This document shows, piece after piece, positions 1,009 through 12,840 of a stretch of 64,000 nt of DNA. The notes under the pieces were generated by a model. It searched no databases. It saw only the letters and a program-made list of their open reading frames with translations, and was not told where the DNA came from. A program made the position numbers and the translations under genes. The stretch comes from Phycisphaerales bacterium (GTDB taxonomy: Bacteria; Planctomycetota; Phycisphaerae; Phycisphaerales; SM1A02): assembly GCA_028278245.1 (NCBI GenBank), contig JANQEQ010000148.1, positions 62,001-126,000 of the forward strand, read 5' to 3'. The first letter of the stretch is position 1. The number at the start of each line of letters is the position of its first letter.

Positions 1009-1120
1009 GCCTGTCTATGAGTTGAGCAGGATCGCAGGCGGCACATCCTGCAGAATGTCCCAACAGAAGGTATCCTGATTGGTTGCGCTCTTGATATAGC
1101 ATGGCCACGGAGATACCACC

Positions 1121-2851
1121 TTGAATCTGACTGAGTTACAGGCAAAGGAATTACATAACTGGGATGACATCAGCGCTGTGCTGGATGCGTTGGCGGATCA
1201 GCACAATCCTCCACAGATCACGGCTGAGCAATTGATGAAGTTCGATATTCCGGGAATTGCGTTTATCACCTTTGCCTATGACATCGACGGCGTAAGTATT
1301 GAAATTGCCAAATACGCACAATGTCTGGAACAATTGATTGGTGAGAAGAGCAAGCACACAACTATTCATTGTGTTGGTGGCAACTTTGCTGAAAAAGCAG
1401 ATTTTGTGCTCGAACCGCGCTGGCAGCGTAAACAACTTCCTCATGCAGATGGGTGGGATAAATGGCAACAAGGTAAATGGTTCTCACGCTTGTTTTACGA
1501 AGACATGCCGGAGAATTCCGATACCTCAGCCGAAGTAGCGCGCGAGATTTGGCAACAAGCTGTCACCCTCACCCAGCACATGTGTGATTACATCCAGGAA
1601 CACAACATCGGCCTGCTTATCCCGGTCAACGTCAATTCCAATCCCGGCAATCTTGCCTACGCCCTGGCGATCGTATTGACATCTGAAGTGCTGAGCGTGC
1701 CGGTGATCAACAACAACCACGATTTCTACTGGGAAGGGGGTACGCCCTTTTCCGAGCGCGCCGATGAGCATATTCCCGGGCCGCGTGATCACTTTTTCCA
1801 TAACGAAAACAACCAGTCGTTTTTCCAATGTTTTGAACGGATTATTCCCTGGAACGGAAAGCACTGGATTCAAGTCAATATCAATCCAATGCAGACGCAG
1901 TGGATGACCAAAGATCATCAGTTCAAGCCGGACGATGTATTTGAAATCGGTACGCTGATTGAAGATGCATTCTTTGAGCCGTGTACCGGAGAGGAAAAGC
2001 GCATGCACCGCTGGCGCATGGCACACATTCTCTCGGATGGCTTTCCCATAGTCACCACTGTTTCCGTCGATGAACACTTGAAAAATCTCGGTTCATGGAT
2101 GAACAACCAGCGCCCGATCATGTGCGGCATCGCGAGCGATTTGAAGGTGGACATTGCCTCCCCTGATTCGTTTTACGTCTTGCAGCCGACTCGGATCGTT
2201 GAGCGCAAGCGTATCGAGCGCGATTGGGAATTGCTTGATGCGGTGCTTCATCATCCCAGGTTCCGCGATATCTTTGAAGAATTTGCCCTGATGACATTAA
2301 CCCTGCACATCACCGGCCCGGTACCGATTGAACACCAGGCCGACCTGGAAAAGGTACTGCACACGTACCGTGATGTGGTGAGCAACCTGCCGGAGGATAT
2401 TGCCAGGCGGGTGTTCGTGGCGTTCAGTGTGGGAACAGAAGATCACCCCTCTCTCCACGAAAATGATATGGGCAAACTCAACATCGTCAGCATCTATCAA
2501 CTGGCGGACATGGTGCTCTTTCCCAGTCTGACGGAAGGGCGCGGGCTGCCTATTCTGGAGTCAGCCGCGGCGGGTGTGCCGATCGTGTGCAGCCGCTATC
2601 AACCGGAAGATGTCTTTGCGGCAGTGGTAGGTGAGCACCTGCCCGAATCAGAACAGGTCATTTACGATCTGTTTCCCGAGGGAGAATTCTCCGAGGAATT
2701 TGTAGAACAGGTGGCGGATCTACTGCTGAAACCCTTCGACCGCGAGGAACGCACCGAGCACAATCGGGCTGCCGTTCGCAACCGTTATTCCATGGATGCA
2801 ATGGTGAAAAATTTCGGCACTTATATTTCACGATTGGCGGATAAAACCTAA
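1121..2851 (+). CDS. Large GT4-type glycosyltransferase
   Basis: Protein of 576 residues with a GT-B fold. The C-terminal half carries the GT4 donor-binding signature, LFPSLTEGRGLPILESAAAG, with the paired glutamates E-x7-E, and ends in the usual helical tail. The N-terminal half is longer than in typical 380-residue GT4 enzymes and contains an NVNSNPGNLAYALAI segment. That arrangement recalls larger sucrose-phosphate-synthase-like GT4 proteins, but donor and acceptor cannot be told from sequence. The start is a TTG. The nearby ATG at 1101 is out of frame, and the next in-frame ATG (residue 39) would remove conserved-looking sequence. It lies between UXS and a second GT4 gene, 24 bp from the latter, suggesting one transcript. 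The Shine-Dalgarno is weak (GGAG at about 1109). Confidence 0.85.
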   Translation: MNLTELQAKELHNWDDISAVLDALADQHNPPQITAEQLMKFDIPGIAFITFAYDIDGVSIEIAKYAQCLEQLIGEKSKHTTIHCVGGNFAEKADFVLEPRWQRKQLPHADGWDKWQQGKWFSRLFYEDMPENSDTSAEVAREIWQQAVTLTQHMCDYIQEHNIGLLIPVNVNSNPGNLAYALAIVLTSEVLSVPVINNNHDFYWEGGTPFSERADEHIPGPRDHFFHNENNQSFFQCFERIIPWNGKHWIQVNINPMQTQWMTKDHQFKPDDVFEIGTLIEDAFFEPCTGEEKRMHRWRMAHILSDGFPIVTTVSVDEHLKNLGSWMNNQRPIMCGIASDLKVDIASPDSFYVLQPTRIVERKRIERDWELLDAVLHHPRFRDIFEEFALMTLTLHITGPVPIEHQADLEKVLHTYRDVVSNLPEDIARRVFVAFSVGTEDHPSLHENDMGKLNIVSIYQLADMVLFPSLTEGRGLPILESAAAGVPIVCSRYQPEDVFAAVVGEHLPESEQVIYDLFPEGEFSEEFVEQVADLLLKPFDREERTEHNRAAVRNRYSMDAMVKNFGTYISRLADKT

Positions 2852-2875
2852 CTTGATTACCGGGAGGTTTTGAAC

Positions 2876-4006
2876 ATGCGCGTTTGTTTTCTTGAAGACA
2901 CTTATCTCCACGGCGGAACGCAGATCTGGGTATCAGAAGCGATCCGCGCGTTCCACAAGCAAGGCGTTGAGATCACCCTGCTCACCGCGACCGACGGTTT
3001 CAATGCGAAAAATGCCGCCGAGCTTGATATCAAACTGGTCACGTATGATTTTGAGGAGATTGTGAAGAAAGAAGCCAAACACCGCGCTGCGTGGGCTGAT
3101 GCGCTGAGTGATGCCGATGTGGCGGTCTGTACCGTGCATCCTCCTCGCGATGGATTCCACTGCTCCGTGTTTGGGGCGGAGGTGATCCACGAAAATAATT
3201 TCTCGACAGTGCTCCTGCCCAAGACTGGTACGATCGTTCCCGAATATTTGCGCGAGTTTTATGCGCCGACCCAGCCCATCAACTCCCACGTCATCAGCAT
3301 CACCAACTTCACGCGTGAATACCTTATCGATTCCTACGGCATACCCGCCGATCAGGTTTCACTTGTCTACCAGGGAACGGATGTACAGGCCTTTACCCGC
3401 GATGCAGCCCGTCAAACAGAAGCACAACAGCGCTATCAACTCCCCGAAGGGGCCGGTCCGGTGCTGGGGAACGTCGGCTCGTTTGAAGAGCGCAAGGGGC
3501 AGGTCGTCCTGCTGGAAGCGATCAAACAGGCCCGCACCCAACTCCCCGATATTCATCTGATGATGGTGGGTGACGGTCCGGACGAAGCGATGCTCAAACA
3601 GAAGATCAGTGAATGGGATCTGCAAGCAAACGTCACCATGTTCCCCTTCACGAAGGAGCCGGTGTACGTCTTTGAGGTGATCGACATTCTCGTACTGTCC
3701 AGTCTGTACAAGGAAGGTTTGCCCAACGTGTTGCTGGAATCATTGGCTATGGAAGTACCGGTCATCTCCAGCAAGATGGCGGGAGTACCCGAAGCGGTCA
3801 TTGAAGGCGAAACGGGTTACATGGTCACGCCCGGTGACGTGAACGAGCTGGCCGAGGCGATTGTGAAACTCGGATCCGATGCGGACCTGCGTCAGAAAAT
3901 GGGCCAAACCGGCTGCACGATGATGACGGAGAAGTTCGACAAGCAACACCAGTTCCAAGCGTTCATTGATTTCTTTGAGATGATCACCCGGCGCTTCATA
4001 GGATAA
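2876..4006 (+). CDS. GT4 glycosyltransferase
   Basis: GT-B glycosyltransferase of 376 residues. The N-terminal acceptor domain opens with MRVCFLEDTYLHGGTQ, whose glycine loop is typical of GT4. The C-terminal donor domain contains GNVGSFEERKGQ and YKEGLPNVLLESLAMEVPVI, with the catalytic E-x7-E pair. The ATG at 2876 is preferred over the TTG at 2870 because GGGAGG (2862-2867) lies 8 bases upstream of the ATG. It is the third gene of the apparent UXS-GT-GT operon and most likely adds a sugar to a lipid-linked or surface glycan at the cytoplasmic membrane. The substrate is unknown. A hairpin at 4039-4058 follows the stop codon. Confidence 0.88.
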   Translation: MRVCFLEDTYLHGGTQIWVSEAIRAFHKQGVEITLLTATDGFNAKNAAELDIKLVTYDFEEIVKKEAKHRAAWADALSDADVAVCTVHPPRDGFHCSVFGAEVIHENNFSTVLLPKTGTIVPEYLREFYAPTQPINSHVISITNFTREYLIDSYGIPADQVSLVYQGTDVQAFTRDAARQTEAQQRYQLPEGAGPVLGNVGSFEERKGQVVLLEAIKQARTQLPDIHLMMVGDGPDEAMLKQKISEWDLQANVTMFPFTKEPVYVFEVIDILVLSSLYKEGLPNVLLESLAMEVPVISSKMAGVPEAVIEGETGYMVTPGDVNELAEAIVKLGSDADLRQKMGQTGCTMMTEKFDKQHQFQAFIDFFEMITRRFIG

Positions 4007-4038
4007 ATGTGTTTATATGTGTGGGGGGGTTTTCGTAG

Positions 4039-4058
4039 GTCGGGTCCACAGACCCGAC
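4039..4058 (+). terminator. Hairpin after glycosyltransferase operon
   Basis: GTCGGGT (4039-4045) and ACCCGAC (4052-4058) form a perfect 7-bp stem with a 6-base loop, 33 bases after the stop of the glycosyltransferase. A G7 run at 4023-4029 precedes it. No good T-tract follows, so it may be a transcript end/stability structure or part of a dispersed repeat rather than an intrinsic terminator. Confidence 0.4.
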
Positions 4059-4079
4059 ATTTATATCTACGCCAGGAAG

Positions 4080-4164
4080 TTCACCACAGAGAGCCACGGA
4101 GACCACGGAGATGGATGAAGAACAATTGTGAATCCCTCCGTGATCTCTGTGCACTCCGTGGTAA
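4080..4164. repeat. CACGGAG-type imperfect inverted repeat, copy 1
   Basis: The left arm (4081-4110) is built from ACCACAGAG, CCACGGAG and CCACGGAG units. The right arm (about 4136-4163) carries CTCCGTG, CTCTGTG and CTCCGTGG. The reverse complement of the right arm matches the left arm in most positions, with about 25 bases between the arms. A second element with CACGGAG arms lies at 19089-19196. Such heptamer-like repeats occur in intergenic DNA of several bacterial phyla (recalled, not searched). The element could form a long hairpin in RNA. Confidence 0.6.
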
Positions 4165-4234
4165 ATGCTTTTCCACTGTTTGAGGGCAAGGGTGAGGGGT
4201 GTTATCCATGCATGAGTATTTTGTGTGTGGGGTG

Positions 4235-4240
4235 TATAAT
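4235..4240 (+). promoter_or_regulatory. Possible -10 element (TATAAT)
   Basis: A perfect TATAAT lies 32 bases before the ATG of the 115-residue gene at 4272. No convincing -35 hexamer is seen at 16-18 bp, so support is modest. Confidence 0.3.
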
Positions 4241-4271
4241 ACCGTATCCACTTCGTGTAAGGGGATCACCC

Positions 4272-4619
4272 ATGAACGCTTGGATACAACACGCAGACTA
4301 CACAGATGAAAGTGTAAACGTCGGCTCGCTTGATATGGCCCTTTCCATCTGGCAGGCCATCAACGCACCATCTGAAGATCAACTTATGCAGGAACTGGAA
4401 TCCCGCGGGGAAGAATTCTGTCCTTGGGGCTATGGCATCACCGGCAGTGACAAAGGTCCTTTCAGCTTCCATGCTTACCGCGAATCGCCGGAAGATGACA
4501 CCTTCGCCGTACGCTTCCAGAAAAACTACCTTGATAAGACATTTGAAGGATTACAGTCGAGCGAAGTCGAATCGAATATCGAACAGTACTTCAATGATCC
4601 TGATGCGATATTTGGATAG
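4272..4619 (+). CDS. Conserved-looking small protein, function unknown
   Basis: 115-residue acidic soluble protein with no signal peptide or membrane segment. I do not recognise the family. Aromatic residues cluster in the middle (FCPWGYGIT, FSFHAYR), and the sequence looks like a compact globular domain. The ATG at 4272 is preferred to an upstream ATG at 4128 because AAGGGG (4259-4264) precedes it at proper spacing, and because the longer form would translate the CACGGAG repeat. It runs convergently into the TPR gene, with one base between the two stop codons. That tight packing hints at a shared history with the ATPase/TPR module, but no functional link can be shown. Confidence 0.6.
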   Translation: MNAWIQHADYTDESVNVGSLDMALSIWQAINAPSEDQLMQELESRGEEFCPWGYGITGSDKGPFSFHAYRESPEDDTFAVRFQKNYLDKTFEGLQSSEVESNIEQYFNDPDAIFG

Positions 4620-4620
4620 A

Positions 4621-6132
4621 TCAATTTAGTTCGTTAATTGCTTCCTGCATTCTCTTAACCATATGCGGCATATCAACCCTCTCGAAAAGATCTCGTGCTT
4701 GTGACCACAGATGCCGTGCTTCATCAACATTGTTTCGTAAGTTAGCAAGTGAACCGAGATTACAGAAAGTATTTGCGATTTGTACCTGATTCCCAAGTTT
4801 CTCGTTAATTTCAAGAACCTGATTAAATAACCTCTCGGAATCTTCAAGATCACCGAGTTCTCGTGCGATTAGTCCTAGATTTCCATACTGGTTTGCCATG
4901 CCCTCTAAATCACCGATTTGTTCCTGAATTTCAAGGGCCTTGCGATAAAAATGGATAGCTGATTCTAGATCCCCTTGAGCGGAAGCACATAATCCAAGAT
5001 TACCATAGTCACTCGCCATTCCTTGCTTATTTCCGAGTTGCTTGTCAATCTCTAATGCTTTGATATGTAATTTCTTGGCTGAACCGTAATTTCCACGCTT
5101 ATGTGCAATATTACCAAGATTCCCGTAGTCGATTGCTTGTCCTTCGTTGTGATTAAGTTGAATGGCTATATCAAGTGACTTGTTAAAATATACTTCTGCT
5201 TCATCAATGTTTCCGCGAGAATCTTCAATAAGTCCCAGATTATTATAACATACAGCTATCCCTTCCTTATCACGAAGTTGCTGATAAAGGTTAAGAGCCT
5301 CACGAAACATAGCCTTCGCTTTGTCAAGATCACCGCGTGTAAGAGCGATCAAACCAATACTACCGTAGTCAATCGCCATGCCGGCCTTATTATTGAGTCT
5401 GGAGTCTATTTCTAGAGATTGATCATGGACTAATTCTGCTTTATCTAGGTTACCAATTAATTTGTGTAACCATGCAATTTCATCAAGCCATAAGCGAACA
5501 TGATGCACCATAACAGAATCAGGATTTGGACCGACTTCCTCTATCCGTTGGTGTAATTCAGCAATGCGAAATTGTTTTTCATCAATACTGAGGTTACTTG
5601 CTAGCAAGAGATCCCCGGATGCCTTATCCGATAGGGCTTTTAAGGGTGCTACCATTTCAGACACAAAATCAAACTGGTGACTTCGCCAGGCCCAGAAATC
5701 TCTTGCTTCTTTTATCAGTAATGTGGCTGCGTATTCAGGCAGCCAGAAAACCACAGGACAAGGGAACGTATTTTTCCACAGCTCGCGAGATGCATTAAGA
5801 GAACGCAGAATGGGATGAGTTGATTCTGAAGAAGAAAGAGAAGCTTCAAGATTTGTTATAAATAGTGTCTGGTATTCTGCATTCTCTATTTTATTTTCTG
5901 CGCAATCTAAAACATCAAAGGCATCATCCGGAAGATACAGGATATAAATACCATCCTCCTCAGAACGAAGCGTTTCGATGATGTAATCCCTCAATGCAGG
6001 GCTGTTGCATACAGCAATGCTGATAGAGAATGTACCTTGTGAAGCAGCCAGCATCCGTCTCAAAGCATACAATTCTGCAGCCTGACGCGCGGATTCAGTA
6101 TTGGATGAGAGCTTGATATGATCCTTACTCAT
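4621..6132 (-). CDS. TPR protein with N-terminal STAND-like region (module partner)
   Basis: 503-residue cytosolic protein. Residues 1 to about 190 form a non-repeat domain with alternating beta/alpha character, including GTFSISIAVCN, GIYILYLPDD, LFITNLEASL, CPVVFWLPEY and FWAWRSHQFDF. This could be a P-loop-type or inactive STAND-like fold, because strand-like segments are present but no Walker A motif is. From about residue 200 to the end there are roughly seven tetratricopeptide repeats of 40 residues, with a recurring YGNLG.IA...GDL..A motif of the kinesin-light-chain/nephrocystin type. The start ATG overlaps the stop of the upstream ATPase (ATGA, 6129-6132), implying translational coupling. 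DNA here is visibly AT-richer than in recA or the ribosomal genes. A sensor or scaffold role in a conflict (defence) system is inference. Confidence 0.85.
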   Translation of the reverse strand: MSKDHIKLSSNTESARQAAELYALRRMLAASQGTFSISIAVCNSPALRDYIIETLRSEEDGIYILYLPDDAFDVLDCAENKIENAEYQTLFITNLEASLSSSESTHPILRSLNASRELWKNTFPCPVVFWLPEYAATLLIKEARDFWAWRSHQFDFVSEMVAPLKALSDKASGDLLLASNLSIDEKQFRIAELHQRIEEVGPNPDSVMVHHVRLWLDEIAWLHKLIGNLDKAELVHDQSLEIDSRLNNKAGMAIDYGSIGLIALTRGDLDKAKAMFREALNLYQQLRDKEGIAVCYNNLGLIEDSRGNIDEAEVYFNKSLDIAIQLNHNEGQAIDYGNLGNIAHKRGNYGSAKKLHIKALEIDKQLGNKQGMASDYGNLGLCASAQGDLESAIHFYRKALEIQEQIGDLEGMANQYGNLGLIARELGDLEDSERLFNQVLEINEKLGNQVQIANTFCNLGSLANLRNNVDEARHLWSQARDLFERVDMPHMVKRMQEAINELN

Positions 6133-7442
6133 TCAGTAGGCTCGTCGGGAGGATCGGGAATAAGAGGATTCACGTTGTACCATTCATTTTCATTCGAATA
6201 TTGAAGGATAGCACGACTGTCTAATAGGTCGCGCACAATGGGTTCGTTGTCATCTGTTCGTTCAATCATTCCGGTTTGCATTACAGTATGAATGATTGGC
6301 CAATGTTTCTTGTGAAGTTCCCTTGCGAAAGCTCTGCGACTATCCCGAGCAGCTCGTTCAACAGAAGCAGGTGTAATGGGGAATCCTGCGCCAACAATGG
6401 CATCACGGATCAGTATCATGAGTTCACGAGGTTGGCCTCCGCAGAGACGAATGAGTTCTGTTTCCACTGCATTTGATTCAAATACATCTTCATGACGTGC
6501 TTGCGCATGATCAAGCCTCTTTTGAATCATTTCTCGTAGTTGCTGATATCCTGGTTCATGCGGCGCAGTGCTTGGCGGTTTTTCGGATATCTTGATCATA
6601 GGGATGACAGGTGTGGGACCGCCATATAGATCTGCAATGTTCTGTTCAACGTTGGAGTATGCAAGCGCCAGCGGCATCGTGTACAGAACATGACAGGCAA
6701 AAGCACGCAATTGTGACTCACGATGGATAAACAGATATTCCCCTGTTGAGCAGTCCATCCCATGCTGTTTGCGAAGAATCATCTTATCTAGGTCGTCTAC
6801 GATGATAATGAGCCGTTCATAGCCCAACTTCTTCAATTCCTTCTCAGCCAAGCCGATGACATCATTCGCGGCTGTGAGTAAATCTTTTGTTCGCGGTTCA
6901 AGAAGAGCACGTATCTTCTTGCGAGTATCTGGACCACTCTTAATCGAGCCGGAAAGTTTCAGGAGACCTGTATCCAAATCAAGGGATTCGAAATCAATAT
7001 CACTTCCTAATAGTTCTTTCGTTTGCTCAAATATTTTCGTGAAGTAACTTGGTTTAAGATCAATATGTGCTCTCGCTCGAAGCTGACCGGCTAACTGTCG
7101 AATCATAGCTGTAAGAACATCAGGAAAATCGACGTCATTGCGTTCGATATCCTTGTCAGCCTCACAGAAAACAACAAAGTATCGAGGGGAACAATCTTCC
7201 AAGATATTTTGAAGACGGTGCAGTTCTGTCGTTTTTCCACTTCCACGATGACCGGCCAAGATTCTGCAGAGTGGCTTTGTTGAAAGGCGAATGCGTTCTG
7301 CGATTCGATCTACTGGACCAACACCGTCTTCATCACCACGAATCACATCAAGATCTACGTAAAGATCAGATTGACCCGGTCCAAGTGGAGCAGGATCGAA
7401 AGCGGCGTACACAGCTTTTGTCAACTCTTGTGTGTCAGTCAT
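6129..7442 (-). CDS. P-loop ATPase of a putative STAND/AAA-type conflict module
   Basis: 437-residue ATPase. Walker A GHRGSGKT falls near residues 64-71 and Walker B, a hydrophobic strand ending in VDDLD, near 212-219. Between them is a helical insertion (about residues 110-205). A CGGQPRELM motif near residue 345 looks like a lid/sensor-2 region, and the C-terminus resembles a winged helix. This layout fits Orc1/Cdc6-like or STAND-like AAA+ ATPases. It lacks recognisable nuclease, helicase or transporter motifs. The ATG at 7442 was chosen; a GTG lies two codons upstream, and neither has a clear Shine-Dalgarno. It overlaps the TPR gene by four bases, so the two products probably form a complex. 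AT-rich composition suggests acquisition. Confidence 0.85.
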   Translation of the reverse strand: MTDTQELTKAVYAAFDPAPLGPGQSDLYVDLDVIRGDEDGVGPVDRIAERIRLSTKPLCRILAGHRGSGKTTELHRLQNILEDCSPRYFVVFCEADKDIERNDVDFPDVLTAMIRQLAGQLRARAHIDLKPSYFTKIFEQTKELLGSDIDFESLDLDTGLLKLSGSIKSGPDTRKKIRALLEPRTKDLLTAANDVIGLAEKELKKLGYERLIIIVDDLDKMILRKQHGMDCSTGEYLFIHRESQLRAFACHVLYTMPLALAYSNVEQNIADLYGGPTPVIPMIKISEKPPSTAPHEPGYQQLREMIQKRLDHAQARHEDVFESNAVETELIRLCGGQPRELMILIRDAIVGAGFPITPASVERAARDSRRAFARELHKKHWPIIHTVMQTGMIERTDDNEPIVRDLLDSRAILQYSNENEWYNVNPLIPDPPDEPTE

Positions 7443-7608
7443 GCACACATTCTATACATAACGTTATAGCTAGTACGGCCGATTGCGAGGGATCATAATG
7501 AGGCCAGCTCGCTGCAGAGTCAGTTGGGAGCCCAATTTGGGATCTTCTTCGTTTCTTGTGGATTATCTCAAAGTAGATATCCACCACAGATACCTCAAAC
7601 GTCTTCAA

Positions 7609-7652
7609 CCCAAACATTTCCCAAAATTTACCCAAAATATTCCCGAACATTC
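7609..7652. repeat. Four 11-bp direct repeats upstream of recA
   Basis: Four tandem units, CCCAAACATTT, CCCAAAATTTA, CCCAAAATATT and CCCGAACATTC, occupy 7609-7619, 7620-7630, 7631-7641 and 7642-7652. Each starts with CCC and recurs at exactly 11 bp, about one helical turn. A further CCGAACATT lies at 7690-7698, 47 bp after the matching part of unit 4. The array sits 63-106 bp before the recA start, so a protein-binding operator for recA or for the divergent ATPase gene is plausible. The SOS regulator's site in this lineage is not known to me. Confidence 0.6.
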
Positions 7653-7714
7653 CTTGCGTTGGTCGAGAATAACCATATCCTAGCGAATACCGAACATTGA
7701 CCAACTGAAAGGGC

Positions 7715-8866
7715 ATGGGTATGGTGTCAACATCAAAGAACGGCAAAGTCGATTCCCGCCTGTCAAGGGGGAAAATCAACAGGGATTCAGCAGAAATGGC
7801 CAACACAATGACGGAAGATAAATCTCGCCTGCAGGCGTTGGAACGCACTTTGAGCCAGATCGAAAAGACCTTCGGCTCCGGCTCGATCATGCGACTGGAC
7901 GAGGAGGCCCACCTTCACATCCCCGGCATCTCGACAGGGGCGATCAGCCTTGATCTGGCCTTGGGCGGACAGGGCGTCCCTCGGGGGCGGATCGTCGAGG
8001 TGTTCGGGCCGGAGAGTTCCGGAAAGACGACCCTGGCTCTCTCAATTGTCGCCAGTGCTCAGCAAACCGGAGGTGTAGCAGCATTTATCGATGCCGAGCA
8101 CGCACTGGATCCCGCCTGGGCCAGACGCATCGGCGTCAACCTCGATGAGATGCTCGTCTCTCAGCCGGACACCGGTGAGCAGGCGCTTGAGATCTGCGAG
8201 TTGCTGGTTCGCTCCAATGCTGTGGATGTCGTGGTGGTCGATTCCGTGGCAGCGCTCATCCCCCGGGCCGAAATCGAGGGTGAGATGGGTGACAGCCATG
8301 TCGGCCTGCAGGCTCGCCTCATGAGCCAGGCGATGCGCAAGCTCACCGGCGCGATTTCCAAGAGTGATACCGTGGTGATTTTCATCAACCAGTTGCGCGA
8401 AAAGATCGGCGTGATGTTCGGCTCTCCGGAAACAACCCCCGGCGGCCGCGCGTTGAAATTCTATTCCACGGTGCGGATCGATATTCGCCGCATCGGCGCA
8501 ATCAAGGATGCAGACAAGAACATCGGCAACCGGGTACGCGCCCGGGTCGTGAAAAACAAGATTGCCCCGCCGTTCCGTGATGCGGAATTTGACATCATGT
8601 TCAATGAAGGCATCAGCGCTTCCGGCGATCTGGTCGATCTTGCCGTGGCCGATGAGATCATCAAGAAATCAGGCGCGTGGTTCAGCTATGGTGAGATTCG
8701 ATTGGGGCAGGGTCGGGAAAATGCCAAGCAGTTCCTGCGCGATAATCTCGAACTCTTTGATGAGATCAAGCAGGCCGTCAGAGTGAAGCGGGGTATGGTT
8801 CCCGCAGACAAGCCGGAAACTGAAGCAGTAACCGAGGCAAAGAAAGAGCTGGCCAAGGCAAAGTAA
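7715..8866 (+). CDS. recA: Recombinase RecA
   Basis: 383-residue RecA, the DNA-dependent ATPase that forms filaments on single-stranded DNA for homologous recombination and SOS induction. Walker A GPESSGKT is at residues 98-105. The [19 protein letters not shown] Walker B/L1 region and the L2 [19 protein letters not shown] segment are present, and the C-terminus is Lys/Glu-rich as usual. AAAGGG at 7708-7713 fits an ATG at 7721 (spacer 7) better than the ATG at 7715. A third candidate at 7796 gives a product of more usual N-terminal length. It is monocistronic, preceded by an 11-bp repeat array and followed by a hairpin terminator. Confidence 0.97.
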
Positions 8867-8934: not shown

Positions 8935-11900
8935 TCAATTGCCGCTGTTTACCCTTTCCAGCAAATCGTCTACCGCCGTTTGCAACTGACGATCGACGCC
9001 AGCTACTTCATCATCCGGATGCTGTTCCACGATGAGATTGGGAATGGCGCCGTTGAGTTCCATGTCGGTGCCATCCAGTACGTACCACCCGCGGAAGGGG
9101 AGTCGGACAAAGGTGCCGTCAATGAGGCCCCAGCCGCCGGTGGAGATCACCCCGCCATAGGTTTGCTGCCCAACGAGTGTTCCGCGCTTGAGGGTCTTGA
9201 ATGCGTGCGCAATGATCTCCGCATTGGAAAAGCTCTTCTCGTTACAGAGCATGTTAATAGGTAGCGTGTAGCGTTGAATAAACAAACGGTCCTGTGGATA
9301 GTAACCGGGGATATGATCGGCACCGCGGGGGACCGTGTATGCATGGGGTTGCACCATGATTGATGCAAGGAGCCGGTCGGCCGTCCACCCGCCGCCGTTA
9401 TTGCGCACATCAATAATCAATCCTTGTTTACCCTCACATGCAGCAAAGAGATCGCGTTCAAAAACATCAAGCGATCCCTGCCCCATACGCTGCACGTGGA
9501 TATAGCCCAGTTGTCCATCTGACAGATCATCAACCCGTTGAGCGTTATTCAGCCGCCACTCTCGGTATTTGAGCTGCGCGATCCTGCCATAACTGGTGGG
9601 CGTAATCAGCACATCAAGATCAACAGTTTCACCACTCTCCAGTGTGCGGCGTACTGTGAACAGGGTTTCCTTTCCGACCAGCCCGTGGAGGCGAGATTCA
9701 AACGTATCGCCCTCTTCAAACGGCTCCAGCTCGACCGCAGTGATCACATCACCGACCTGCAGTTTCATCGGGCCGCGATCTGCCGGTGACTGAGGAATCA
9801 CATGATCGATCATAAAGCCATCGGCAACGCGATGATGTTCAGCGCCCAAACGGCCGTACGGTTGCGTGTTAGGCGAGCTGTCCCCTCTCATATAAACGCC
9901 CAGATGCGAAGCGTTCAACTCACCGAGAAGTCGATTACATACGTGGTTGAACTCATTAACCGTGCGGGTCTGCAGCGCGAGTTGATAATATTCTTCCGCA
10001 AGAGTTTCCCAGTCAACATCGTTCATGGTTGAGCTGTAAAATCCCTCGCCCACACCGCGTGTAACTTCGTTGAATTTCTGACATGCCTGTTGCTCAAGAT
10101 CAATGCGGATTTTGTCTGAGATCGAAACGGTTTCAATCTTATTGCCGGTGGGACTGATCGTACCTCCCTGGCTGCCGGAGACCACCACCACCTTGTCGCC
10201 GCCGAGGTTGACATGCATGAGACTGCAGGAAGATGTCAGTTTCTTTCGATCACTTCCATCCCATTTGACAGAGTGAAGTCCGGAAATATCACCATAGGCG
10301 TTGAAGATGATGCGATCGCCACCGGGTGTGAGCAGATGGCTCATCTCGTTCCCGCCCAGCGAGGTGACGCGACGGACGCGCAGGTACGCATCATCAAGGT
10401 CGAGTTTGAGTGGTTCCTCCTCTTCTTCTTCTTCTTCAGCCTCATCTATTTCATCCGGTTCCTTTTCCTCCTCATCTTCCTCGCCGTTGCCGGCATCAGT
10501 GGCATCATCTTCTGATGCTTCTGTTTCTTCAGATTCCTCCGGTTCATCTTCCGGTACTTCCACTTTCAGTGGTTCTCGTTTTTTCGCAGCCTTTGCCGCA
10601 TCCTCATAATATTTTTTCAAATCCGGAGAAGTCAGCGCTTCCAGATCCTTATCAAGATAGACCATCCATACATCGAACTGCTCGTTAACCCGTTCAGAAG
10701 TGAAGGTAAGAATCTTTCCGTCTGCTGACCATTGGGGATTAACATCGTTATCCGGATGTCGCGTGACATTGATCGGCGGTTGTGAATTGTCCACCGGGAT
10801 AATGAAAATATCCTGGTTGAAGTTAAGATCGCTTTGTGCGTAAGCAATGTGACTGCTGTCCGGGCTCCACTCCCACTCGATCCACGCATCCCAATGAGTA
10901 ACGAGATTGTGGATCTCGCCGCTTTCCAGGTCCATGACGTGCAGGTTTCCGTAGTCACCACGGAAAGCAAGCCTTTTTCCATCCGGTGACGGGCTGGCTA
11001 CACGGTCATTGGAATCGCGCAGCACGACGGGAGTGATCGTGAATTTCATCGCGTCATGCCACCGCTCCGGTTGATACTCCGGAGGCGTTTCCTTTTCTTC
11101 TTCCTCTTCCTTTTTACCCTTGTCTTTCTGATCAGCCGCGTCTTCCTCTTCTTCCTCTAATTCTTCGGCCGGCTCCTCAGCAGGAGTTTCGGAACCGGAT
11201 CCTTCTTCGGATTCCGGTTCTTCAGAGGGAGTTTCCTTCGTCTCCTCCGCTACCTCATCAGCGGGCGGCTTTTCTTCCGGCGGATTCAGCGCTTCGTCAA
11301 ACTGTTCCTTGACTTCACTTCGTGTCAGGCTGACCGCGGCGGCATAAATGGATTCAGTTCCATCGCGATCGCTCGTAAAATAAAGTTTCAATCCATCGGG
11401 AGACCACGCGATATCCTTTTCCCGCGCGTGATTGAAAGTGACACGACGTGTAAGGCTGTTCTCATCGACGTTGCGAACATATACCTCACCGTAGGAAACA
11501 AATGCCATCACCTGATTGTCCGGGCTCAACGTTGCTTCGGACACGGTTCGATCAATTGACTTCAGTTCGTAATTATCATTTTCGTCTTCACTGGCCACGA
11601 TGGTGAGCGGGACCGGTTGCGCCTGCGGATTATTGAGATCAAGGGTATACAGCGTATCCCACACCATGAACACCACGGTGGAACCATCGGCCGTCACATC
11701 AAATGACTGCACATCACGCTCGGTAAAATCAGTCAGGCGCGCTGCCACACGGTCTCCATCCTCAGCGCTCATGCGCCAAAGGTTGACGCAATTCAACTCG
11801 CAGTTTGAGAGGTAGAGAATGGTTCTTTCCCCGCCCCATTTCGGCGACCCGTCATTTCCTTTCCAGGTTGTCAGTTTCTGAAACGAATCACTGGGTCGAT

Positions 11901-12531
11901 CAAACAACCAGAGGTCCATCGCCTCCGGACCGTCGTAGTGACGACGTTCCCAGTCGTCGACGACACCCCCGTAAAAGCCGCCCCGCTGAAAGACCACTCG
12001 CGTGCCATCGGGGCTGATACATGGATTTGCACCGAACGCATCGTGAATCCGTCTCAAATCTCCCCCGTCCGTTGACACCATGTAGGGGCGGAATTCACGA
12101 TACGCATCACCTTCCATGTAAGAATGGAAAGTCACGACGGTATGGCCGTTCTCATCTACACCGAAACTGTTGAGTGCGCAGGGGCGATCAACGGCGCTGA
12201 GTTGGCGAATATCCGTTCCATCGGCATTCATCAGGTGGATATTGGTCGCACCCGATCGAGTGGATTCAAACGCGATGTGTTGGCCGTCCGGACTCCAGGT
12301 GGAGCGCAGTTCATCTCCGGGATGGTTGGTGAGCCGAGTTGCAGACCCACCCTCTGAAGCTACTTTCCAGAGATCTCCGCGCCAGGAAAAGACAATCCAT
12401 TGACCGTCAGGGCTGATGGAGGGGTAGCGGGGGATCGTGACATTGCCATCCTGTGCTTGTGCAATTATCGGATGAGCCAGTGTCAGTAAAATGGTCAGGG
12501 CGTGGGTGATGAACCAGATCTTTCCGGACAT
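8935..12531 (-). CDS. Exported tricorn-type protease (beta-propeller, PDZ, S41 peptidase)
   Basis: 1198-residue protein with a Sec signal peptide (residues 1 to about 25, ending AQAQ). N-terminal PD40/WD40-like propeller repeats follow, with recurring SPDG motifs (for example ISPDGQWIVF, WSPDGQHIAF). A second propeller block, a PDZ-like region (HVIPQSPADRGPM) and a C-terminal S41 tail-specific protease domain complete it. The protease domain has IIDVRNNGGGW and the nucleophile serine in KSFSNAE. Two extremely acidic Glu-rich linkers interrupt the propeller part. The ATG at 12531 has GGGAGA six bases upstream. An open frame continues 90 codons further upstream but has no signal peptide and was rejected. 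Probably a periplasmic peptide-degrading enzyme; substrates unknown. Confidence 0.9.
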   Translation of the reverse strand: MSGKIWFITHALTILLTLAHPIIAQAQDGNVTIPRYPSISPDGQWIVFSWRGDLWKVASEGGSATRLTNHPGDELRSTWSPDGQHIAFESTRSGATNIHLMNADGTDIRQLSAVDRPCALNSFGVDENGHTVVTFHSYMEGDAYREFRPYMVSTDGGDLRRIHDAFGANPCISPDGTRVVFQRGGFYGGVVDDWERRHYDGPEAMDLWLFDRPSDSFQKLTTWKGNDGSPKWGGERTILYLSNCELNCVNLWRMSAEDGDRVAARLTDFTERDVQSFDVTADGSTVVFMVWDTLYTLDLNNPQAQPVPLTIVASEDENDNYELKSIDRTVSEATLSPDNQVMAFVSYGEVYVRNVDENSLTRRVTFNHAREKDIAWSPDGLKLYFTSDRDGTESIYAAAVSLTRSEVKEQFDEALNPPEEKPPADEVAEETKETPSEEPESEEGSGSETPAEEPAEELEEEEEDAADQKDKGKKEEEEEKETPPEYQPERWHDAMKFTITPVVLRDSNDRVASPSPDGKRLAFRGDYGNLHVMDLESGEIHNLVTHWDAWIEWEWSPDSSHIAYAQSDLNFNQDIFIIPVDNSQPPINVTRHPDNDVNPQWSADGKILTFTSERVNEQFDVWMVYLDKDLEALTSPDLKKYYEDAAKAAKKREPLKVEVPEDEPEESEETEASEDDATDAGNGEEDEEEKEPDEIDEAEEEEEEEEPLKLDLDDAYLRVRRVTSLGGNEMSHLLTPGGDRIIFNAYGDISGLHSVKWDGSDRKKLTSSCSLMHVNLGGDKVVVVSGSQGGTISPTGNKIETVSISDKIRIDLEQQACQKFNEVTRGVGEGFYSSTMNDVDWETLAEEYYQLALQTRTVNEFNHVCNRLLGELNASHLGVYMRGDSSPNTQPYGRLGAEHHRVADGFMIDHVIPQSPADRGPMKLQVGDVITAVELEPFEEGDTFESRLHGLVGKETLFTVRRTLESGETVDLDVLITPTSYGRIAQLKYREWRLNNAQRVDDLSDGQLGYIHVQRMGQGSLDVFERDLFAACEGKQGLIIDVRNNGGGWTADRLLASIMVQPHAYTVPRGADHIPGYYPQDRLFIQRYTLPINMLCNEKSFSNAEIIAHAFKTLKRGTLVGQQTYGGVISTGGWGLIDGTFVRLPFRGWYVLDGTDMELNGAIPNLIVEQHPDDEVAGVDRQLQTAVDDLLERVNSGN

Positions 12532-12840
12532 GAGATTCTCCCGTTGGTTGCAGAATCCAATGAAAGCATGTGTTTGGGGTGAGTGTACATGACAGTACAT
12601 CTTCGTACATGATTGCTGTGCTGTACGTAATGGTTCCGACGAGCGTGTTACCGGATGCAGGGTGAGATGTGATTCCATCAATGATTCAAGTCCTGATGGG
12701 CTACAAGGAGGGGATGTATCCTGATTTCGGGGTTGGATTATGCGGGATAGGCAAGAGAAATCATCGAAAAATCGGACCTGAGAGGGAATTGGCCTCTCCA
12801 AACAGACGATAGATACGTCACGTCAAGGAGGGCGTTTCTC
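12532..12840. other. Divergent intergenic region, tricorn gene / small protein
   Basis: 309 bases without a supported gene between divergent starts. It holds the phased GTACAT repeats (12585-12610) near the tricorn start and the strong Shine-Dalgarno of the small gene (12825-12832). I saw no other structure. Confidence 0.6.
12585..12610. promoter_or_regulatory. Three GTACAT repeats at 10-bp period
   Basis: GTACAT occurs at 12585-12590, 12595-12600 and 12605-12610, exactly 10 bp apart, with a related GTAC at 12623-12626. The array starts 54 bp upstream of the tricorn start. Same-face spacing suggests an operator for a regulator that binds cooperatively. No regulator gene is adjacent. Confidence 0.4.

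Follow-up and report, generated by a model that had tools for sequence, protein, structure and literature searches.

Two overlapping genes that adjoin recA in the window, the 64,000-nucleotide stretch of a Phycisphaerales bacterium genome analysed here, are best explained, with moderate confidence, as a mobile STAND-type conflict module, probably directed against invaders, in which an AAA+ domain that is itself dead links a TPR sensor to the active ATPase. By analogy with its relatives the pair probably has an immune role, and since these relatives join the dead head domain to known immunity domains, it is probably an undescribed mobile sensing/defence module. If this is true, a STAND ATPase is connected with interchangeable sensors and known immune effectors by an undescribed AAA+ adaptor domain that is outside Pfam and occurs in about ten phyla; many more conflict proteins could then be traced through this domain, and the pair would be a testable case of switch/sensor separation in bacterial NLR-like immunity.

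The gene pair beside recA

The ATPase gene and the gene for its partner, the TPR protein, are listed with their features in Table 1, and recA (7715–8866) adjoins the ATPase gene in divergent orientation. Position 7442, previously taken as the end of the ATPase gene, is an ATG two codons inside the GTG start. The four-base overlap is likely to couple the translation of the two genes. In base composition, the TPR gene (GC 41.3 %) and the ATPase gene (45.8 %) are the lowest among the long ORFs of the window; 49 window ORFs average 52.0 % (sd 3.1). The GC3 values of the two genes, 33.7 % (z −3.0) and 37.5 % (z −2.5), respectively, are also the lowest in the window. Each gene is present in one copy in the source genome. 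Promoter and terminator scans at the pair gave no signal exceeding shuffles, nor is the pair bounded by any long repeats, direct or inverted. An earlier note on this DNA had described an overlapping pair, AT-richer than its surroundings and next to recA, that comprises a P-loop ATPase with intact Walker A and B motifs and a TPR protein with a strand-containing N-terminus lacking Walker A; the reading frames, the motifs, the composition and the structural model bear out this description. Its statement that no known effector domain could be recognized also holds, as profile searches, including Pfam and NCBIfam, found none in either protein.

Table 1. Coordinates of the gene pair, its motifs and domains, and the surrounding segment
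Feature	Position	Strand	Basis
Active AAA+/STAND-clade ATPase gene	6129–7448	minus	ORF, 439 aa from GTG; ATG at 7442
ATPase Walker A, GHRGSGKT, residues 66–73	7230–7253	minus	sequence and homologue alignment
ATPase Walker B, IIIVDDLD, residues 214–221	6786–6809	minus	sequence and homologue alignment
ATPase GGxPR motif, lid region, residues 337–341	6426–6440	minus	homologue alignment
ATGA overlap, ATPase stop/TPR-protein start	6129–6132	minus	read from sequence
Partner (TPR) gene	4621–6132	minus	ORF, 503 aa: pseudo-AAA+ N-domain and TPR array
N-domain, ~residues 1–200, predicted AAA+ fold without P-loop	5533–6132	minus	AF2 model
N-domain Arg116, LNxxR motif	5785–5787	minus	R in 53/53 homologues
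N-domain Asp145, AxDFW motif	5698–5700	minus	D in 53/53 homologues
Seven 40-residue TPR units, likely sensor arm	4648–5487	minus	40-residue register, self-identity 0.36; Pfam
Segment missing between the same flanks in relatives G001 and G005	1009–7714		flank comparison

Judging by the translations, the pair lies in the window among genes for a UDP-glucuronate-decarboxylase-like protein, two glycosyltransferases, RecA and a tricorn-like protein; the last of these (8935–12801) reads as a WD/PDZ/S41 protease homologue with long acidic E/D-rich inserts. The UDP-glucuronate-decarboxylase-like gene (69–70 % identical in relatives G001 and G005) is separated from recA by 166 and 133 bp in these relatives versus 6707 bp here, where the intervening segment contains the pair together with a 163-aa ORF and the two glycosyltransferase genes. 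For the second of these glycosyltransferase-like genes (both within 1121–4006), 60 related genomes gave no close relative (E ≤ 1e-60), and since it is likewise absent from these genomes, the insertion may exceed the pair or be the product of two events.

An active ATPase and a dead AAA+ partner

The motifs of the ATPase are conserved among 53 homologues. Walker A residues G66, H67, G69, G71 and K72 are invariant, position 218 of Walker B is D or E in all sequences, and D221 is D in 51 and E in 2, while in the GGxPR motif G337 and G338 are invariant and R341 is retained in 46. The AF2 model (pLDDT 91), which includes a winged-helix region, aligns best with TnsC, archaeal STAND ATPases, Cdc6/Orc and CED-4, with VIA Z scores of 15.5 to TnsC (7mbw), 15.5 to an archaeal STAND ATPase (2qen; 307 residues, reaching 434) and 13.2 to CED-4 (286 residues, reaching 439). 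In the model, helical and winged-helix parts follow the AAA+ core, an arrangement shared with CED-4 and archaeal STAND ATPases, and on this predicted structure the ATPase belongs to the STAND/Cdc6-Orc/TnsC clade. At the place of the upstream hhGRExE-type motif it has a conserved YVxxDxxRGxxxxV segment with no clear match to hhGRExE. Direct sequence matching to solved structures returned generic P-loop matches only.

Among NCBIfam families, the P-loop ATPase Sll1717 family (NF047389) scores 39.6 bits, over residues 61–227 only, against a curated cut-off of 75, and the DS41_1 anti-phage family (NF053860) scores 28.1 bits against a cut-off of 370. Identity with DS41 was rejected on this score and on the lack of an N-domain partner at planctomycete DS41_1-like loci. 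ATPases resembling the validated anti-phage DS41_1 (up to 110 bits, cut-off 370) were encountered in 42 of 294 planctomycete genomes, in several orders (L097–L111 and others), with no N-domain partner within about 1.5 kb.

The first ~200 residues of the TPR protein, referred to here as the N-domain, lack a GxxxxGK[ST] motif, and the Walker A position is occupied by CNSPALRD. The AF2 model (pLDDT 87) contains five strands, with strands and helices alternating, and aligns with TnsC (7ufi; VIA Z 13.6, 146 residues, 3.3 Å) as well as with the AAA+ core of MuB, NSF and ORC. As modelled, the N-domain is a dead AAA+ module. No Pfam family covers it, and the window member has no Pfam match there; direct sequence matching to solved structures was without significant result, and in the viral structure library the only matches were to generic AAA+ proteins. 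A profile–profile comparison matched the N-domain family weakly to the ATPase family over the Walker B–sensor 1 region (score 33.5, well over the 9.9–18.7 of reversed or shuffled controls, but probability 31 %), so that descent of the N-domain from the ATPase of the pair itself is no more than a suggestion.

Two N-domain residues, Arg116 and Asp145, do not vary among homologues (Table 1). Arg116 is a candidate trans-acting residue, although it could alternatively form a mere internal contact with Asp145. The matched position in the ATPase, R243, is R in 35 of 53 homologues versus 53 of 53 for Arg116. Another residue considered as an arginine finger, R150 of the WRS motif, was rejected, and Arg116 is the better candidate because the R150 position is R in only 38 of 53 homologues.

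Conservation, mobility and variable C-termini

Scanning the ATPase alignment against about 85,000 species genomes yielded 60 loci, hosted by Planctomycetota, Pseudomonadota, Cyanobacteriota, Chloroflexota, Verrucomicrobiota, Acidobacteriota, Myxococcota, Nitrospinota, Sumerlaeota, Vulcanimicrobiota and a Lachnospiraceae genome. Cultured hosts of such pairs include Thiobaca trueperi and Zoogloea ramigera. The N-domain profile identified a partner downstream of the ATPase at 54 of the 56 loci with enough sequence, the exceptions being L056 and L068, which are unmatched; the remaining four loci are cut by contig ends. In cyanobacteria, the intergenic gap extends up to a few hundred bases and once to about 1 kb. 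When 61 relatives were considered, both genes were found in the same four, adjoining and in the same order. Since homologous pairs recur with gene order kept in many phyla (about ten), the pair is no chance arrangement of ORFs. The ATPase and the N-domain co-diverge: their distances correlate with a Mantel r of 0.89 (n=51), whereas permutations reach 0.15 at most. Such a correlation is partly expected of any linked co-travelling genes, and the pair has not been reassorted.

The pair is mobile. It is patchily distributed, being present in a few percent of relatives, it is a GC outlier, and its flanks are adjacent in the two relatives described above. Copies on plasmids, some of which are conjugative or mobilizable, retain both genes of the pair, and the chromosome of Moorena bouillonii PNG (locus L046) carries nine ATPase/N-domain pairs, one with a fragmentary ATPase gene, besides several lone N-domain proteins, and the C-terminal modules differ. 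Phyla are intermingled in the ATPase tree: it needs 14 or more changes against a possible minimum of 9, a count that binning errors and paralogy can inflate. Phage records and viral contigs contained no match to the pair, and on this ground a viral origin was rejected.

The region downstream of the N-domain is variable. In the window it is a TPR array (Pfam TPR_12, E 1e-43), and among 52 partners examined with Pfam, 45 carry TPR and 8 carry NACHT. The C-terminal combinations seen include NACHT with TPR and nSTAND1 with WD40. Larger forms comprise a DUF4062-NACHT-FGE fusion in a Methylococcaceae genome (L022), a planctomycete metallophosphatase-NACHT-FGE fusion with the ATPase upstream (L116), and a planctomycete 1731-aa protein in which the N-domain is joined to TPR-SIR2-NACHT-FGE (L112, 10816–16011). 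No ATPase gene was found within about 10 kb upstream of the SIR2 form; therefore, the N-domain can exist without this ATPase. Fusions to nSTAND1-WD40 occur on an Acaryochloris plasmid, on Nostoc plasmids and in Moorena, and directly upstream on the Acaryochloris plasmid lie genes annotated CHAT, NB-ARC and TIR. The SIR2 and metallophosphatase motifs of N-domain relatives appear intact by eye. On a Calothrix plasmid (L091, 11923–19430), the ATPase is followed by a second ATPase-like protein of 697 aa and then by an N-domain-WD40 protein, with annotated reverse transcriptases a few kilobases away.

Close relatives usually share less identity in the repeat region than in the ATPase, and lengths differ by whole repeats of 40–41 residues. 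In the L023/L025 comparison, identity falls from 90 % in the ATPase to 79 % in the N-domain and 57 % at the C-terminus, with a 41-residue gap; L059 and L064 differ by a 40-residue gap in the repeat region, and L058/L060 is an exception to the lower repeat-region identity. Together, repeat indels and lower C-terminal identity would be consistent with sensor-like evolution of the TPR arm.

Proposed function and comparison with known systems

In the proposed mechanism, the first gene would provide an active AAA+/STAND ATPase and the second an adaptor-sensor composed of the dead AAA+ domain followed by the TPR array. The dead domain may dock on the ATPase and either keep it inactive or complete its site in trans, with Arg116 as a candidate residue. 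The TPR arm would recognize an invader or stress protein, and ligand binding would lead to nucleotide exchange by the ATPase, assembly of a ring or filament and delivery of the response. In the larger relatives, the response would be carried by SIR2, metallophosphatase or other adaptor-fused domains, and in the minimal form found here either the assembled ATPase or an effector from another locus would have to supply it. As the minimal pair has no effector, its output is the least certain step. More tentatively, the system may be seen as a split NLR, in which separate switch and sensor/effector proteins are joined by a dedicated dead AAA+ adaptor; one switch design would then serve interchangeable cartridges (TPR, WD40-nSTAND1, SIR2-NACHT-FGE and metallophosphatase-NACHT-FGE), with many copies in filamentous cyanobacteria.

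The strongest argument for a defence function is that the N-domain is shared with larger NLR-like proteins, and the domain sets fused to it are those of bacterial conflict systems (PMC7159879, PMC8195603, PMC10907252). The earlier note's proposal of a conflict/defence module is sustained in part, as regards a conserved, mobile STAND-type pair with N-domain homologues fused to immunity effectors and switches; no effector was found for the minimal pair. The structural models place both proteins among AAA+ folds, with no metabolic fold for the N-domain and the STAND/Cdc6-Orc/TnsC clade for the ATPase. The pairing is conserved, and the homologues are not vertically inherited and do not keep to a single set of housekeeping neighbours. 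The suggested enrichment in defence islands is unsupported, because the PADLOC results for 145 near neighbour proteins did not differ clearly from those for 146 far ones. A family member with a demonstrated phenotype did not turn up in the libraries and papers searched, nor did any paper describing the ATPase/N-domain pair.

It is possible, though we would not favour it, that the pair simply represents the published nSTAND2 two-gene conflict system (Kaur, Burroughs, Iyer, Aravind, eLife 2021, PMC8195603) with TPR in the effector position, a reading that is compatible with the conflict-module explanation and competes with it over novelty only. As in that system, a mobile two-gene operon has a STAND/AAA+ module in both proteins, one active and one with eroded NTP-binding motifs (here the N-domain without a P-loop), and a variable fusion on the inactive one. 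An arginine finger conserved in both proteins is a further feature of nSTAND2. The ATPase also has weak profile and fold links to mitochondrial S29/DAP3, named as close to nSTAND2 in the same paper, which cites Leipe et al. 2004 for the Npun2340/2341 STAND family. However, the commonest nSTAND2 fusions are GT4 and HEPN, unlike the TPR, WD40, NACHT, SIR2, metallophosphatase and FGE modules seen here; no GT4 or HEPN fused to the N-domain was recognized among the 25 of 49 Pfam families listed. Neither protein matches any model named nSTAND2 in the libraries used, which may contain no such model.

A non-defence signalling or chaperone pair appears unlikely. In this reading the TPR protein would bind a client of the host, and the ATPase would remodel this client or else control some accessory trait, for example aggregation or the synthesis of polysaccharide. 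TPR and AAA+ are also a common host chaperone/scaffold combination, the minimal form has no effector, and the near neighbours show no defence-gene enrichment. The two glycosyltransferases in the same segment would hint at surface polysaccharide, but glycosyltransferases are not among the recurring homologue neighbours listed. Fusion of homologous N-domains to SIR2, metallophosphatase, NACHT, nSTAND1 and FGE, together with the patchy, plasmid-borne, multi-copy distribution, argues against this reading. A mobile-element function, with the ATPase acting in an integrated element as a DNA-binding AAA+ protein like TnsC or MuB and the partner regulating it, is highly improbable: TnsC and MuB are among the best structural neighbours and the segment looks inserted, but the TnsC likeness is common to the whole STAND/Orc clade, no transposase, TniQ or integrase gene was recognized beside the window pair, no transposase is frequent among the families listed for 145 near-neighbour proteins (two PDDEXK_2 matches only), and phages and viral contigs are without a match.

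The conflict-module explanation also finds parallels beyond nSTAND2. The iSTAND and iSTAND2 MoxR-vWA ternary systems (PMC7159879, PMC8195603) likewise place an inactive STAND adaptor/sensor beside an active AAA+ protein, but the window pair has no adjoining MoxR or vWA gene. On a Nostoc plasmid (p057_J; L095, 8942–11866), a protein annotated SAV_2336 N-terminal-like is fused to a relative of the ATPase that adjoins a MoxR gene, with a formylglycine-generating-enzyme-like gene a few kilobases off. The NLR-like antiphage STAND proteins (Avs, bNACHT) resemble the pair in combining a STAND switch with a TPR-like sensor, and relatives of the partner have an effector-NACHT-sensor order; the metallophosphatase-NACHT form (L116) resembles DS-8, a tested metallophosphatase-NACHT defence protein (PMC13092281). 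Unlike Avs and bNACHT, which carry effector, STAND and sensor on one polypeptide, the pair consists of two polypeptides, with the dead AAA+ domain on the sensor and no effector found. Similarity to the Sll1717 and DS41_1 families is detectable in the P-loop region, far under the curated cut-offs. TnsC, MuB and Cdc6/Orc share the AAA+ fold class of both proteins, but their transposition or replication context is absent here. The active/inactive pair of nSTAND2 is the closest published design, a likeness drawn from its described organization rather than from family alignments; the two arrangements match in outline, and the fused modules differ.
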